A stretch of DNA of 64,000 bases from Microbacterium jejuense (GTDB taxonomy: Bacteria > Actinomycetota > Actinomycetes > Actinomycetales > Microbacteriaceae). The translations under genes were made by a program, and so were the position numbers. Location of the stretch: positions 248,001 to 312,000 of the forward strand of contig NZ_JAEUAW010000002.1 in NCBI RefSeq assembly GCF_019511665.1, in the 5' to 3' direction. The notes below the pieces were generated by a model, which saw only the letters and a list, made by a program, of their open reading frames with translations, ran no database searches and was not told where the DNA came from. Shown piece by piece: positions 85 to 41,673 of the stretch (positions within the stretch are counted from its first letter, which is position 1; the number at the start of each line of letters is the position of its first letter).

Positions 85-253
85 GGGCGTTTCGTCTCGC
101 TCGTTCCTCGCTCGCTCAACGGCCGGGACCCGACCCGGTCGTCGGGTGCTCGCTCAACGGCCGGGACCTGACCGGTCGCCGGGTGCTCGCTCAACGGTCG
201 GGATCAGGCCCGGTCGTTGAGCGGAGGGCGCTCTGGCGCCCGCAGACGAAACG
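85..253. repeat. Interspersed inverted repeat, locus 1
   Basis: A reverse short arm at 88-124 starts CGTTTCGTCTCGCTCG and ends in CTCAACGGCC. Two degenerate tandem pieces carrying TGCTCGCTCAACGG follow at about 143-208. A forward long arm at 212-253 (GGTCGTTGAGCG ... GCAGACGAAACG) contains a GGGCGCTCTGGCGCCC hairpin. The locus lies between two genes. Reading through the long arm in one frame adds a spurious 36-residue N-terminus to the next gene. Confidence 0.85.
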
Positions 254-17248: not shown

Positions 17249-18032
17249 TCTCGCCACGCCGTTCCCGCGGCCGGACTTCGAGCTGCCGGTGCGCGGCGAC
17301 GCATACCGCCGTGCCGATCCGCAGACGCTGCGCGACCTGGAGCGCGTGTCGTCGGCCACGGCGTGCGCGAAGCTGCACGGCATGGGCATCACGCGCTCGT
17401 TCGTCGAGGGCCCGCGGCCGCTGGCCGAGGGTCAGCGAGTCGTCGGCTCGGCGATCACGCTGCAGTTCATGCCGCAACGGGAGGACCTCGCATCGGGGCA
17501 CGGCCAGGAGTACGTCGAACGGCACACCGCCCTGTGGCACGTGCTCGAAGAGGTGAAGCCCGGCGATGTGCTGGTGATCCAGGCGTTCGGCAGCAAGTAC
17601 TCGGGCTGCATCGGCGACATCCTGGCGCGCTACTTCGTCAAGAAGGGCGGCGTGGGCATCGTGGTCGACGGTCGCATCCGCGACTCCGACCGCATCAAGG
17701 ACCTCGGCCTGCCGGTGTGGTCGACCGGCACGACGCCGCACTACGCGTCGCAGACCGAGCTGTTCCCGTGGGCGTACGACGTGCCCGTCGCCGTGGGCGG
17801 CGCCCTGTGCATGCCCGGCGACGTCGTGATCGCGGACGGCGACGGGCCCGTCATCGTGCCGCAGGCGATGGCCGGCGCCGTGCTCGAGTCCGCGCAGGAC
17901 CACGAGGACTGGGAGGCATTCAGCCGCCGCCGCCTCGACGAGGGCGCGCGCCTGAGCGACTACTACCCTCTGACGCCGGACTCGCGTGAGGAGTACGAGC
18001 TGTGGCGTTCCGCGCAGGCCTTCGCCCGCTGA
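17241..18032 (+). CDS. RraA family protein (4-hydroxy-4-methyl-2-oxoglutarate aldolase-like)
   Basis: Cytoplasmic protein of 263 residues of the RraA/HMG aldolase fold. The metal and substrate site is seen as GSKYSGCIGDILARYFVKKG followed by GIVVDGRIRDSDRIKDLGLPVW, with the conserved Arg-Asp. Family members are divalent-metal aldolases or decarboxylases acting on oxo-acids, and a few inhibit RNase E. In a fucose operon, cleavage of an oxo-acid late in the pathway is the likely job, but the exact substrate cannot be read. ATG 17241 with GAAGGAG upstream; it overlaps the previous stop and the next start. Confidence 0.85.
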   Translation: MSDLATPFPRPDFELPVRGDAYRRADPQTLRDLERVSSATACAKLHGMGITRSFVEGPRPLAEGQRVVGSAITLQFMPQREDLASGHGQEYVERHTALWHVLEEVKPGDVLVIQAFGSKYSGCIGDILARYFVKKGGVGIVVDGRIRDSDRIKDLGLPVWSTGTTPHYASQTELFPWAYDVPVAVGGALCMPGDVVIADGDGPVIVPQAMAGAVLESAQDHEDWEAFSRRRLDEGARLSDYYPLTPDSREEYELWRSAQAFAR

Positions 18033-18943
18033 CACCCACGCCGGGCGCCTCCGACACCTTCGGGCTGGGCTGCGCGCCCATCGGCAACCTGTTCACCGCG
18101 GTGGCCGATGCGGACGCGGACGCGACCGTCGGTGCTGCCCTGGACGCCGGCATCCGGTTCTTCGACACGGCGCCGCACTACGGCGCGGGGGCGAGCGAGG
18201 CGCGGCTGGGGCGTGCGCTCGCCGGGGTGCCGCGTGACTCCGTCGTGATCGCGACGAAGGTGGGTCGCAGGATCGTGGATGCCGGCGGCGCTGCGGTCCC
18301 GTCGGGCGAGGTCGGCACCGACACGGTGGCGGACCTGTCGCGTGACGGCGTGCTGCGGAGCCTGGAGGGGAGCCTGGCCCGGCTGGGCACGGACCGGATC
18401 GACCTGCTGTACCTGCACGATCCGGTCGATGTCGATGAGGCGCTGCGGTCGGCGATCCCTGAGCTGGTGCGGCTGCGCGCCGAGGGTGTGGTGCGCGCGA
18501 TCGGCGTCGGCATGGTGTGGCCCGAACCGCTGACGAGGTTCGTGCGCGAGGCCGACGTGGACGTGGTGATGATCGCCGGGCGCACGACCCTGCTCGACCA
18601 CCGCGGTGAGTCCGCGCTGCTGCCGGCCGCGGCGGAGCGGGGGGTGGGCGTGGTGGCGGCCGGGGTGTTCAACTCGGGCATCCTCGCCGACCCCGTGAAC
18701 ACGCCGTACTTCGATTACCGCGAGGCTCCGGCCGAGATGCAGGAACGGGCGCGCGAGCTGGCCGCCCTGTGCACGCGGTTCGGGGTCGAACTGCGGCACA
18801 TGGCGTCGCGGTACCCGCTGCGCCTGCCGGCGGTCGAGGCCGTGGTGGTGGGCGCCCGGACGCCGGCCGAGGTCCACGACTTCGCTTTCGCCGAGCACGC
18901 TGAGATCCCTGACGAGCTGTGGGCCGAGATCGAGCGCCTGTGA
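18002..18943 (+). CDS. Aldo/keto reductase (L-fucose/D-threo-aldose 1-dehydrogenase-like)
   Basis: NAD(P)-dependent oxidoreductase of 313 residues. AKR hallmarks are FFDTAPHYGAGASEARLGRAL (catalytic Asp and Tyr), VIATKVGRRI (Lys), DLLYLHDPVDV (His) and VVVGARTPAEV (cofactor). The Asp-Thr-Ala-Pro-His-Tyr form and the pairing with an amidohydrolase-type lactonase fit aldose 1-dehydrogenases that convert L-fucose to L-fuconolactone. The GTG at 18002 has GAGGAG at 17988-17993 and overlaps the RraA gene by 31 bases. The stop overlaps the lactonase start (GTGA). Confidence 0.87.
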   Translation: MAFRAGLRPLTPTPGASDTFGLGCAPIGNLFTAVADADADATVGAALDAGIRFFDTAPHYGAGASEARLGRALAGVPRDSVVIATKVGRRIVDAGGAAVPSGEVGTDTVADLSRDGVLRSLEGSLARLGTDRIDLLYLHDPVDVDEALRSAIPELVRLRAEGVVRAIGVGMVWPEPLTRFVREADVDVVMIAGRTTLLDHRGESALLPAAAERGVGVVAAGVFNSGILADPVNTPYFDYREAPAEMQERARELAALCTRFGVELRHMASRYPLRLPAVEAVVVGARTPAEVHDFAFAEHAEIPDELWAEIERL

Positions 18944-19896
18944 CGATCGTCGACGCGCACATCCACCTGTGGGACCTCTCGCGGTTCTCGCTCTCGTGGT
19001 TCCGGGACGACATGGGCCTGCCGCGCGAGGCGTCGCCCGAGGCGTTCCACTCCTCCACTGCCTCGCCCGTTGAGCGAGCGGGGACGCTTCGTCTCGCCGG
19101 CGCTCGCTCAGCGACCGACTCGCGAGACGAAACGCCGCAAGCCGACCTCGACACGCCCCCCGTCGCCTTCCCGCTCGTTGAGCGAGCGAGGAACGAGCGA
19201 GACGAAACGCCGCAAGCCGACCTCGAGACGCACCACGCAACCACGGCGATCGCCGTGCAGGCCGGCGACACCCTGCCCGAGATGCAGTGGCTGCTGAAGG
19301 TCGCCGCGACCGACCCCCGCGTGCGCGCCGTGGTCCTGCAGTACGTCCCGGGCCCCGAAGGCTGGGCCGGCCTCGCTACGAGCGTGCTCAACGACCGCGT
19401 GCATGGCATCCGCGTGGCAACGCCCGGCGGTGCCGCCGACCTGTCGGACGTCCCGGGCCTCGACGCTCTCTGCTCCGGTGCCGGGGAGTCCGGGCGGGTC
19501 GTCGAGTTCCTGGTCCGCCCCGCACAACTGGACGCCGTCGCGCGAGTCGCAGCACGGCATCCGCACACGAGGTTCGTGCTCTGCCACCTGGGTCTCGGTG
19601 CCGGAGTGCCGACCCCGGAGTGGGAGGGGTCGCTCCGGCGGGTGGCGGCCCAGCCCCACACCGCTGCGAAGTTCTCGGGCCTCGTGACAGGGGTCGAAGA
19701 CCACGCTCGTCTGGCGGCGCTCGCGGCGACGGCATCCACTCTTCTCGGTGCCGACCGGCTCATGTTCGGCAGCGACTGGCCGATGTCGTCGCGAGTGACG
19801 TCGTACGCGCGACTGGTCGACGACGTGGCCATCGCCTGGGGTGACCGGCCGGACGCGTTCTGGGGCGCCACGGCCGCGGAGACCTACGGACTCTAG
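18940..19896 (+). CDS. Amidohydrolase-family lactonase (L-fuconolactonase-like) with inserted repeat peptide
   Basis: Metal-dependent lactonase of 318 residues, COG3618 type, expected to open L-fuconolactone made by the preceding reductase. The metal motif is VDAHIHLWDLSRFSLSWF at the N-terminus. HTRFVLCHLGLG, TAAKFSGLVTGVED and LMFGSDWPMS supply further ligands, including the final Asp. Residues 43-97 are foreign: they are the translation of two interspersed-repeat copies, giving RDETPQADLDT and RDETPQADLET 25 residues apart, and the frame is kept. Relatives normally have a short loop there. GTG 18940 overlaps the reductase stop by four bases. Activity of the modified enzyme is uncertain. 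Confidence 0.85.
   Translation: MTIVDAHIHLWDLSRFSLSWFRDDMGLPREASPEAFHSSTASPVERAGTLRLAGARSATDSRDETPQADLDTPPVAFPLVERARNERDETPQADLETHHATTAIAVQAGDTLPEMQWLLKVAATDPRVRAVVLQYVPGPEGWAGLATSVLNDRVHGIRVATPGGAADLSDVPGLDALCSGAGESGRVVEFLVRPAQLDAVARVAARHPHTRFVLCHLGLGAGVPTPEWEGSLRRVAAQPHTAAKFSGLVTGVEDHARLAALAATASTLLGADRLMFGSDWPMSSRVTSYARLVDDVAIAWGDRPDAFWGATAAETYGL
19068..19231. repeat. Two repeat copies inserted in frame inside the lactonase gene
   Basis: CGTTGAGCGAGCG (19068), a reverse arm (CGCTTCGTCTCG to GCTCAGCGACCG, 19085-19116), GAGACGAAACG (19124), then GCTCGTTGAGCGAGCGAGGA to GAGACGAAACG (19173-19209). The 33-base blocks at 19124-19156 and 19199-19231 differ at one base and are 75 bases apart, exactly 25 codons. 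No stop codon is introduced in the frame used. Confidence 0.9.
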
Positions 19897-34132: not shown

Positions 34133-34640
34133 TCGGACGAGCGAGGACGCTTCGTCTCGTCGCTGGCGCGCCTCGCTCAGCGACCGGTCGTTGAGCGAGC
34201 GAGGCACGAGCGAGACGAAACGCCTCGGCTGCACGGTCGGCCTCGTGCCAGGACCGCGTTTCGTCTGCGCGCGCCAGAGCGCGCTCCGCTCAACGACCGG
34301 CACCACGCCCCCCGGTCGTTGAGCGAGCGAGGTACGAGCGAGACGAAACGCCTGGGCTGCACGGTCGGCCTCGTGCCAGGACCGCGTTTCGTCTGCGCGC
34401 GCGAGAGCGCGCTCCGCTCAACGACCGGCACCACGACCCCCCGGTCGTTGAGCGAGCGAGGTACGAGCGAGACGAAACGCCTCGACCGCACGGTCGGCCT
34501 CGTGCCAGGACCGCGTTTCGTCTGCGCGCGCCAGAGCGCGCTCCGCTCAACGACCGGCACCACGACCCCCCGGTCGTTGAGCGAGCGAGGCACGAGCGAG
34601 ACGAAACGCCTGGGCCGCACGGTCGGCCCCGTGCCGGAGC
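34133..34640. repeat. Tandem array of interspersed inverted repeats
   Basis: The 592-base gap 34053-34644 is nearly all repeat. After a variant reverse arm (34148-34187), units start with GGTCGTTGAGCG at 34186, 34314, 34443 and 34572, giving periods of 128, 129 and 129 bases; the last unit is cut off near 34640. Each unit is a forward arm ending GACGAAACG, a linker holding GCACGGTCGGCC, and a reverse arm CGTTTCGTCTGCGCGCG ... CTCAACGACCGG. Units differ at a few bases in the linker. No gene is supported within it. Confidence 0.92.
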
Positions 34641-40843: not shown

Positions 40844-41197
40844 GCGTTTCGTCGCGGAGGGCGCTCTGGCGCCCGCAGACGAAACGGGGTGTGGCACGAG
40901 GTCGCCCGTGCGGTCGGGGCGTTTCGTCTCGCTCGTTCCTCGCTCGCTCAACGACCGGTGGTCGGGGCGGGGGCGTCTGGTCTCGCTCGCTCAACGGCCG
41001 GTGGTCCCGGTCGTTGAGCGGAGGGCGCTCTGGCGCCCGCAGACGAAACGCGGTCCTGGCACGACGTCGTCCGTGCGATCGGGGCGTTTCGTCTCGCTCG
41101 TTCCTCGCTCGCTCAACGACCGTTTGGTCTCGCTCGCTCAACGGCCGGTGGTCCCGGTTGTTGAGCGGAGGGCGCTCTGGCGCCCGCAGACGAAACG
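40844..41197. repeat. Interspersed inverted repeat cluster
   Basis: The 472-base gap 40821-41292 is mostly repeats. A truncated long arm at 40855-40886 follows a CGTTTCGTC remnant. A reverse short arm lies at 40919-40956, and a complete element spans 41009-41123 (long arm 41009-41050, linker with CGTGCGATCGGGG, reverse arm 41087-41123). Another long arm is at 41156-41197 with GGTTGTTGAGCG. Partial GTCTCGCTCGCTCAACGGCC pieces lie between. No gene is supported before 41293. Confidence 0.9.
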
Positions 41198-41292
41198 CCC
41201 GCGTGTCCTCCCCAGACCGGGGGGAGCAACGCCCGCTCACAGATGCCGGTCGAACGCACCTCGGCGCCGCCAATGGCAGACAGCATCGAGAA

Positions 41293-41580
41293 ATGGGCTA
41301 CGTCTATATCCTTCGCTGTGCCGACGGCACGTACTACGTCGGCAGCACGATCGACCTCGACCGGCGTCTGGATCAGCACAACGCCGGCGAAGGCGCCGCG
41401 TACACCCGGCGTCGGCGGCCCGTCGAGCTCGTATGGACGAATGAGTTCGCGCGCATCGAGGAGGCGTTCGCGTGGGAGAAACGCATACAGGGCTGGAGCC
41501 ACGCCAAGCGCGAGGCGTTCATCATAGGAGGCATAGACGCAGTGCGCGGATGGCACAAGCGAGGCGGACGCGGGCGATAG
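41293..41580 (+). CDS. GIY-YIG domain protein (UPF0213-like)
   Basis: Protein of 95 residues consisting of one GIY-YIG nuclease-like domain: MGYVYILRCADGTYYVGSTIDLDRRLDQHNAGEGAAYTRRRRPVELVW holds the GIY-like (VYI) and YIG-like (YVG) strands and the catalytic-type Arg; EAFAWEKRIQGWSHAKREAFI holds the conserved Glu. Stand-alone members such as YhbQ bind or nick DNA; the role is unclear. Long open frames upstream are read-through of repeats and are discarded. Weak ribosome site. Confidence 0.85.
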   Translation: MGYVYILRCADGTYYVGSTIDLDRRLDQHNAGEGAAYTRRRRPVELVWTNEFARIEEAFAWEKRIQGWSHAKREAFIIGGIDAVRGWHKRGGRGR

Positions 41581-41599
41581 GCCCTTCGTGCGGTCGGGG

Positions 41600-41650
41600 C
41601 GTTTCGTCTCGCGAGTCGGTCGCTGAGCGAGCGCCAGCGAGACGAAGCGT
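41600..41650. repeat. Interspersed inverted repeat, compact copy
   Basis: CGTTTCGTCTCGCGAGTCGG runs straight into TCGCTGAGCGAGCGCCAGCG and AGACGAAGCG, so two arms face each other with almost no linker. The flanking word CGTGCGGTCGGGG (41588-41600) matches the linker of other copies. Confidence 0.8.
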
Positions 41651-41673
41651 CCTCGCTCGCTCTGCGACCCCGA

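Follow-up and report, generated by a model that had tools for sequence, protein, structure and literature searches.

RESULTS

The amidohydrolase gene and its insert

The window, which is the whole stretch of 64,000 nucleotides of DNA analyzed here, belongs to a 4.2-Mb host genome, and the nearest named relatives of its proteins are from Microbacterium. The gene of main interest, at positions 18940..19896 on the plus strand, encodes an amidohydrolase of 318 aa (PF04909, COG3618-like), and its GTG start overlaps the stop codon of the upstream ORF (18002-18943). The Amidohydro_2 profile (Pfam PF04909) matched residues 4-317 with an E value of 9.9e-23, and the best Foldseek hits for the predicted structure were the COG3618 amidohydrolases 4do7 (E 4.2e-17) and 4dlf (E 5.3e-17). 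By profile and predicted fold, the protein is assigned as COG3618 or L-fuconolactonase-like, while the name L-fuconolactonase itself comes only from several homologues. The initial annotation had placed the motifs DAHIHLWD and GSDWP in one frame around an insert, and this was confirmed by the open frame together with the nearly full-length Pfam match. The HxH and GSDWP columns were invariant in all 30 rows of the alignment. The dN/dS for the core against G064 (259 codons outside the insert) was 0.24, and that for the core of hemL against four relatives was 0.05-0.10; both cores are under purifying selection.

The repeat-derived in-frame insert occupies 19068..19236 on the plus strand and adds 53-55 residues relative to the insert-free close relatives, as deduced from the alignment with P0011, P0013, and P0015. 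The proposal of two in-frame repeat copies, predicted to be translated as an insert of about 55 residues, was upheld, with the repeat-derived residues beginning (VERAGTL) at residue 44. The two copies were found to be unlike in form. Copy 1 (19067..19135, plus strand) is a longer, nested palindrome consisting of a sense head, an antisense copy, and a sense tail (DNA fold z -2.1, with 6/200 shuffles as stable). Copy 2 (19177..19209, plus strand) encodes VERARNERDET and shows the exact pattern of the family with the commonest letter at its free base, making it identical to the commonest 33-mer genome-wide. The two 33-base blocks described in the initial annotation encode RDETPQADLDT (residues 62-72; 19123..19155, plus strand) and RDETPQADLET (residues 87-97; 19198..19230, plus strand). 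They differ at one base, and their starts are 75 nt apart, in agreement with the claimed distance of 25 codons. A repeat search of the window likewise returned a 53-nt pair at a spacing of 75 in this gene.

The modeling suggested in the initial annotation was carried out with AlphaFold on the 30-row alignment and gave a mean pLDDT of 83.9. Residues 60-95 were below 50, residues 41-59 were also low (block means of 55-61), and a strand was predicted from residue 100. The insert is thus predicted to be disordered, at residues 60-95 in particular, within a COG3618 fold that is otherwise modeled with confidence.

Homologues of the amidohydrolase

In the 30-row alignment, repeat-derived or decayed sequence at residues 43-100 was present in P0001 to P0010, P0012, and P0014 and was absent from P0011, P0013, P0015, and 15 more distant rows. 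For the amidohydrolase and its 14 closest homologues, this amounted to repeat-derived sequence in 12/15, with varying unit number and linker, P0008 and P0014 being included in this count as decayed repeats scored by eye. The insert-free close homologues P0011, P0013, and P0015 are 263, 265, and 263 aa long, respectively, compared to 318 aa, so that the alignment with COG3618 relatives proposed at the outset did reveal proteins without the insert. The converse case, in which homologues carry the same residues without repeats, was not encountered among the homologues examined; any residues present at the site were recognizable or decayed units with differing linkers. The linker variants observed at the site were VERARNERDET, VERAKRDET, VERAQRDET, and VERAERDET. 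In P0005, a 19-residue unit was tandemly duplicated in near-perfect form. The amidohydrolase of G064 reads as P0010, which is named M. kyungheense. The notion that the in-gene unit is always the commonest variant of its host genome was rejected, as the GAG linker within the G064 gene was unique among the 23 copies listed. A close named relative at 69% identity was M. helvum (L094); the 80 loci kept from the contig scan were mostly distant amidohydrolases. In a tree of 25 amidohydrolases, the presence and absence of the insert required at least four changes, with many forks unresolved. Since this tree is poorly resolved, this gene may have received a single old insertion that later underwent turnover.

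Copy number, form, and reading frames of the repeat

The core CGTTGAGCGAGCG, allowing up to one mismatch, occurred 15 times in the window against an expectation of 0.54. Genome-wide, the exact 13-base core CGTTGAGCGAGCG was found 201 times compared to once for the reversed control, and the 33-base pattern (one base free, up to three mismatches) was found 131 times compared to none for the control. Among the places listed, at least 85 matched the 33-base pattern without mismatch. Copies outside genes took the form of single units and of dimers (approximately 113 nt) bounded by 12-nt terminal inverted repeats. An array of such dimeric palindromic elements, with the terminal inverted repeats GGTCGTTGAGCG/CGCTCAACGACC, lies at 34186..34640 on the plus strand. 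A second array, with repeat units in both orientations, lies at 40845..41199, upstream of a GIY-YIG gene. Just downstream of that gene, at 41599..41669 on the minus strand, a copy of the nested form has a core with one mismatch and, by eye, resembles copy 1 of the amidohydrolase in reverse. Further copies lie close to the start of the window (88..253).

As DNA, one dimer had a predicted folding energy of -43.8 kcal/mol (z -4.3), and 0/200 shuffles were as stable. In contrast, no advantage over shuffles was seen for a 41-nt unit on its own (z -1.0) or for the copy 2 stretch (z -0.35). From the z values by form, it was concluded that strong palindromy is confined to the longer forms. High-copy short palindromic units that often occur as inverted dimers, as in REP and REPIN sequences, were thus found here (131 copies; z -4.3 for the dimer and -1.0 for the single unit). 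Terminal inverted repeats, as expected for a MITE, were found in one full dimer, where the 12-nt pair was GGTCGTTGAGCG/CGCTCAACGACC. The tetranucleotide CGTC occurs inside the repeat. The 39-nt repeat core is free of stop codons in five of its six reading frames, and the sixth contains TGA. The sense frames found in genes were those reading VERARNERDET and LSERGTSETKR, while the sense frame that holds the stop was absent.

Other genes with the repeat in frame

Besides the amidohydrolase gene, the repeat was internal and in frame in four genes, namely hemL, a heparinase II/III-like gene, a gene fusing fumarylacetoacetate hydrolase and RraA-like domains (FAH-RraA), and a sulfite-dehydrogenase-like gene. 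These came from a screen for open frames spanning a repeat in which the third codon positions looked coding-like on either side of it. The screen was applied to 103 distinct flanked copies of the 131 33-mers, taken from stretches of 2.5-5 kb, and 11 distinct frames were printed. Five frames were dropped: L018 and L029, which had matched by chance, and those on the opposite strand in L031, L240, and L243. The counts of intragenic repeats from this set of copies are lower bounds. In two further genes the repeat lies, by eye, at a predicted end: in the C-terminal tail of an ABC ATPase and in an N-terminal extension of a 3-hydroxyacyl-CoA dehydrogenase. The tail repeat of the former (L031) was found by reading the frame, the screen having flagged a chance match there. 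For the latter, the profile match begins at residue 102, and it is considered the weakest case because the true start could be later.

Where it aligns with its NCBIfam model, the FAH-RraA fusion is 29 residues longer. The linker of this fusion (L243 562-2160) holds one sense and one antisense repeat, and a C-terminal LRQAQGPG resembles the GAGCCTGTCGAA family described below. In the sulfite-dehydrogenase-like protein, a repeat array lies in the linker stretch ahead of the catalytic domain. Alignment with relatives covered the amidohydrolase, hemL, and the heparinase-like gene. For the last of these, many of the 63 matching genomes aligned in two parts, corresponding to residues 1 to approximately 392 and approximately 420 to 511. 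Among the ten loci aligned, VERAR-type sequence was present at this site in the host genome, G129, G100, G048, G160, and G101 and absent from G061, G073, and G189, with other extra residues in G064.

The hemL insertion site

The hemL gene is essential. Some match to hemL was obtained in 197/198 genomes of the genus, and the host genome had nine matches, one of them full strength, among the matches listed. The best solved HemL structure (3bs8) aligned to residues 7-103 and 129-441 of 455, and the 25 unmatched residues between hold the repeat. For the best 120 of 7,997 homologues, 118 of which were parsed, the loop contained the repeat family in 9, an unrelated family (GAGCCTGTCGAA) in 17, both in 1, other extra residues in 3, and no insert in 88. 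P0235, P0236, P0237, and P0240 had at first appeared to carry the GAGCCTGTCGAA family, but it was their conserved core ELVE that had matched, and they were counted as insert-free. P0236 is a Microbacterium-like hemL filed under a plasmid of Coraliomargarita sp. W4R53, probably a mislabeled or contaminated record.

This second, GAGCCTGTCGAA family, which includes the 14-mer TGAGCCTGTCGAAG, lay in the hemL loop in one orientation in L249 (G048) and in the other in L252 (G175), and the 14-mer has nine exact copies in the host genome. In L267 (the hemL locus of G160), the coding insert appeared by eye to hold the first family in antisense, with the second family nested in that copy. One insert-bearing hemL, P0125, is from Microbacterium hibisci.

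At the DNA level, 9/9 insert-bearing hemL genes kept the frame with no stop inside the insert, although these genes were found via protein matches, which favors intact frames. All nine also lacked the DG(A) that follows TR in many insert-free alleles. This loss (L245-L268) looks as if the insertion had replaced a few codons. When empty and filled hemL sites were compared at the DNA level, no clear target-site duplication was seen, and DG(A) had apparently been replaced. In a DNA tree of 24 hemL rows, built with gappy columns removed and without G160, the six rows with the repeat family required six changes, a count that cannot separate gain from loss. The sister of the host genome in this tree, G064 (support 100/100), had no insert. 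An AlphaFold model of hemL from an alignment of 24 close rows was set aside, as its mean pLDDT was 53.7.

The GIY-YIG nuclease gene between the repeat arrays

The gene flanked by the repeat arrays (41293..41580, plus strand) encodes a small GIY-YIG nuclease of 95 aa (PF01541, E 6.5e-21), which is a candidate mobilizer of the repeat. Small GIY-YIG loci of the genus were compared using 70 loci, of which 66 were parsed (G137, G014, G164, and G157 were left out, and six matches of like strength lay outside the set). A motif rule for subfamilies proved unreliable, and a tree was used instead. In this tree 37 loci, termed clade A, grouped with the gene of the window and 29 fell in other clades, the boundary of clade A being soft because its support was 86/67.

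The 8-mer GTTGAGCG was found within 700 nt of 35/37 clade A loci compared to 2/29 loci of other clades, and on both flanks of 31/37 compared to 0/29. The number of core copies per genome had a median of 37 with a clade A gene compared to 2 in 157 other genomes (4 left out). Of the 14 genomes with at least 80 copies, 13 had a clade A gene; the exception was G136, in which 129 copies were counted and a clade A gene was not found. Conversely, five clade A genomes had fewer than five core copies. A clade A gene was present in 6/7 genomes with the repeat family in hemL compared to 4/17 other near hemL genomes (Fisher p 0.009), although this and the rank test overstate significance because related genomes are not independent. 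G086 has the repeat family in hemL, yet its GIY-YIG genes, among the loci examined, were solely of other clades. In L305, from G014 (47 repeat copies in this genome), the GIY-YIG match has two in-frame TAG stops and is perhaps a decaying copy.

Matches to the nuclease were obtained in 34/85 genera of the bacterial family. In other genera, 21/26 GIY-YIG loci shared at least ten 12-mers between their near flanks compared to 0/25 for far flanks, and GTTGAGCG itself was present in 1/26. Within the genus, near flanks sharing at least one 12-mer were observed for 25/26 GIY-YIG loci of any clade compared to 8/28 hemL loci. Repeats beside GIY-YIG genes are hence not peculiar to one family, since clades without GTTGAGCG share other flank 12-mers. 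Most clade A loci of the genus have the same repeat-flanked arrangement, and it also recurs in other genera, where the repeat sequences are different. A search for the Y1 transposase (PF01797) gave a match in 1/198 genomes and none in the host genome.

DISCUSSION

Proposed origin of the insert

It is considered probable that a dispersed REP-like palindromic repeat lies in frame in the amidohydrolase gene and in four other genes, that its predicted translation product is a tolerated disordered surface loop, and that it was likely copied with the help of the small GIY-YIG nuclease whose gene is flanked by repeat arrays. The preserved frame and its conservation suggest that the insert is translated, and it is presumed to be functionally neutral; for the nuclease, it is the physical linkage that points to a role in copying. 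An insertion that keeps the frame would give a full-length protein, since five of the six core frames are free of stops. Selection would remove any insertion that breaks the frame or the fold, leaving inserts at a few permissive loops. With few such loops available, the same ones would be filled repeatedly in different species by the repeat family, with the hemL loop also receiving an unrelated family in either orientation.

A wider proposal, whose chances we put as even, is that a separate REP-like system exists in Actinobacteria, with a small GIY-YIG nuclease taking the place of the Y1 transposase in propagating palindromic repeats that are specific to each lineage. These repeats would keep adding new peptide loops to essential enzymes, always at fixed permissive positions. 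If this were true, the hemL loop of Microbacterium would be a natural record of repeated in-frame insertion.

Alternative explanations

A pseudogene without a product had been named in the initial annotation as a case against its own reading, and long frames are indeed common in GC-rich DNA, with 169 ORFs of at least 150 aa listed in the window. That the amidohydrolase frame arose by chance or belongs to a pseudogene is nevertheless scarcely credible, given the open frame with its near full-length Pfam match, the HxH and GSDWP motifs invariant in 30 rows, the core dN/dS of 0.24, and the confident fold; the parallel case of hemL, with its one full-strength match among the genome matches listed, argues in the same direction. 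A genuine gene might still yield a protein from which the insert is missing, either because translation bypasses it or because it is excised from the RNA. Bypassing elements exist in some yeast mitochondria, and the dimeric repeat, being palindromic, could form hairpins. This was deemed very improbable, however, as the insert-bearing hemL genes were in frame without stops in 9/9 cases, which has a chance of approximately 5e-5 if the frame is free, assuming independence and setting the discovery by protein match aside.

Two further alternatives concern how the repeat reached its sites. It is unlikely that each gene received one ancient insertion that has since undergone only tandem duplication, slippage, and decay, with no continuing mobility, so that the amidohydrolase repeats are an inherited tandem repeat. 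The duplicated 19-residue unit of P0005, the presence of some repeat-derived sequence in 12/15 of the closest rows, and the poorly resolved amidohydrolase tree are all compatible with this history. It does not agree with the hemL site, which holds two unrelated repeat families, one of them in either orientation, and where insert-bearing rows are scattered among insert-free sisters. Nor does it fit copy 2 of the amidohydrolase, whose identity to the commonest genome-wide 33-mer requires recent arrival or homogenization. It is also possible, if less probable than the preferred explanation, that the nuclease is a passenger: recombination or replication slippage would account for the spread of the repeats, and the gene would lie in the arrays only because these are safe intergenic sites. 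The many copies in G136 without a clade A gene and the few copies in some clade A genomes are consistent with a passenger. Against it, the flanking repeats are lineage-specific, with GTTGAGCG found by clade A genes and rarely by those of other clades, and GIY-YIG relatives in other genera have other sequences common to their close flanks (21/26 compared to 0/25 for distant flanks).

Implications

The Microbacterium group is free-living. The in-frame repeats described here are in this group, including one full-strength hemL match among the matches listed, and occupy sites that are refilled across species. By comparison, in-frame selfish repeats are, in the excerpts available from reviews, best known from obligate intracellular bacteria. 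The long-standing question of mobile DNA as a source of new protein segments becomes directly testable, and the linkage to a GIY-YIG gene provides a concrete candidate enzyme for repeats that lack a RAYT transposase.

Comparison with known systems

The phenomenon of in-frame repeats is already known, since Rickettsia palindromic elements and other intragenic repeats have been published (PMC3733652, PMC10969869, PMC2229807, and PMC2759123, in the portions available). Among the literature matches listed, no description of in-frame repeats in Actinobacteria was found, preprints and most subscription papers being outside the scope of the search. The same matches contained no GIY-YIG nuclease tied to REP-like repeats, the GIY-YIG matches being mostly to fungal or plant organelle genomes and enzymes. 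GIY-YIG homing endonucleases have the same PF01541 domain, whereas the 95-residue protein of Microbacterium consists of little beyond this domain and lies between arrays of short repeats.

Small non-autonomous repeats with open frames fused in frame to genes are described for the enterobacterial RU-1, RU-2, RU-3, and ERIC and for the Neisseria Correia/NEMIS elements, and target-site duplications are listed for several of these MITE families (PMC2759123 and PMC2229807, as far as their accessible text extends). Compared by description, the Microbacterium repeat differs from these intragenic MITEs in its host and in that no clear target-site duplication was seen at hemL. With REP and REPIN sequences and their RAYT (TnpA-REP), it shares short palindromic units present singly or as inverted dimers, in tens to hundreds of copies, around a single gene whose product processes DNA. 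Intragenic REPs have been reported in O. terrae, Thioalkalivibrio, and R. conorii, and CGTC-tagged repeats without a dedicated transposase have been described (both from the accessible part of PMC3733652). In Microbacterium, however, the linked gene encodes a GIY-YIG nuclease, and a Y1 match is missing in 197/198 genomes. Because this transposase is missing, the repeat was placed outside the REP/RAYT systems, and in its manner of working it is like the Rickettsia palindromic elements.

That analogy had been drawn in the initial annotation, and it holds for behavior, as several conserved genes that are unrelated to each other contain the repeat in frame. Rickettsia palindromic elements and the protein-coding palindromes of Wolbachia are found both between genes and as in-frame parts of conserved protein genes that are not related to one another (PMC2229807, PMC10969869, and PMC3733652, in the sections available). 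Judged from the same sections, they resemble the Microbacterium repeat in being short, palindromic, and both intergenic and in frame in conserved genes, a likeness of behavior. In size, the Rickettsia elements are approximately 105-150 bp, compared to a core unit of 27-33 nt and dimers of approximately 113 nt in Microbacterium. The Microbacterium case differs further in that it is GC-rich and actinobacterial, is linked to a nuclease gene, and involves two repeat families at one hemL site.
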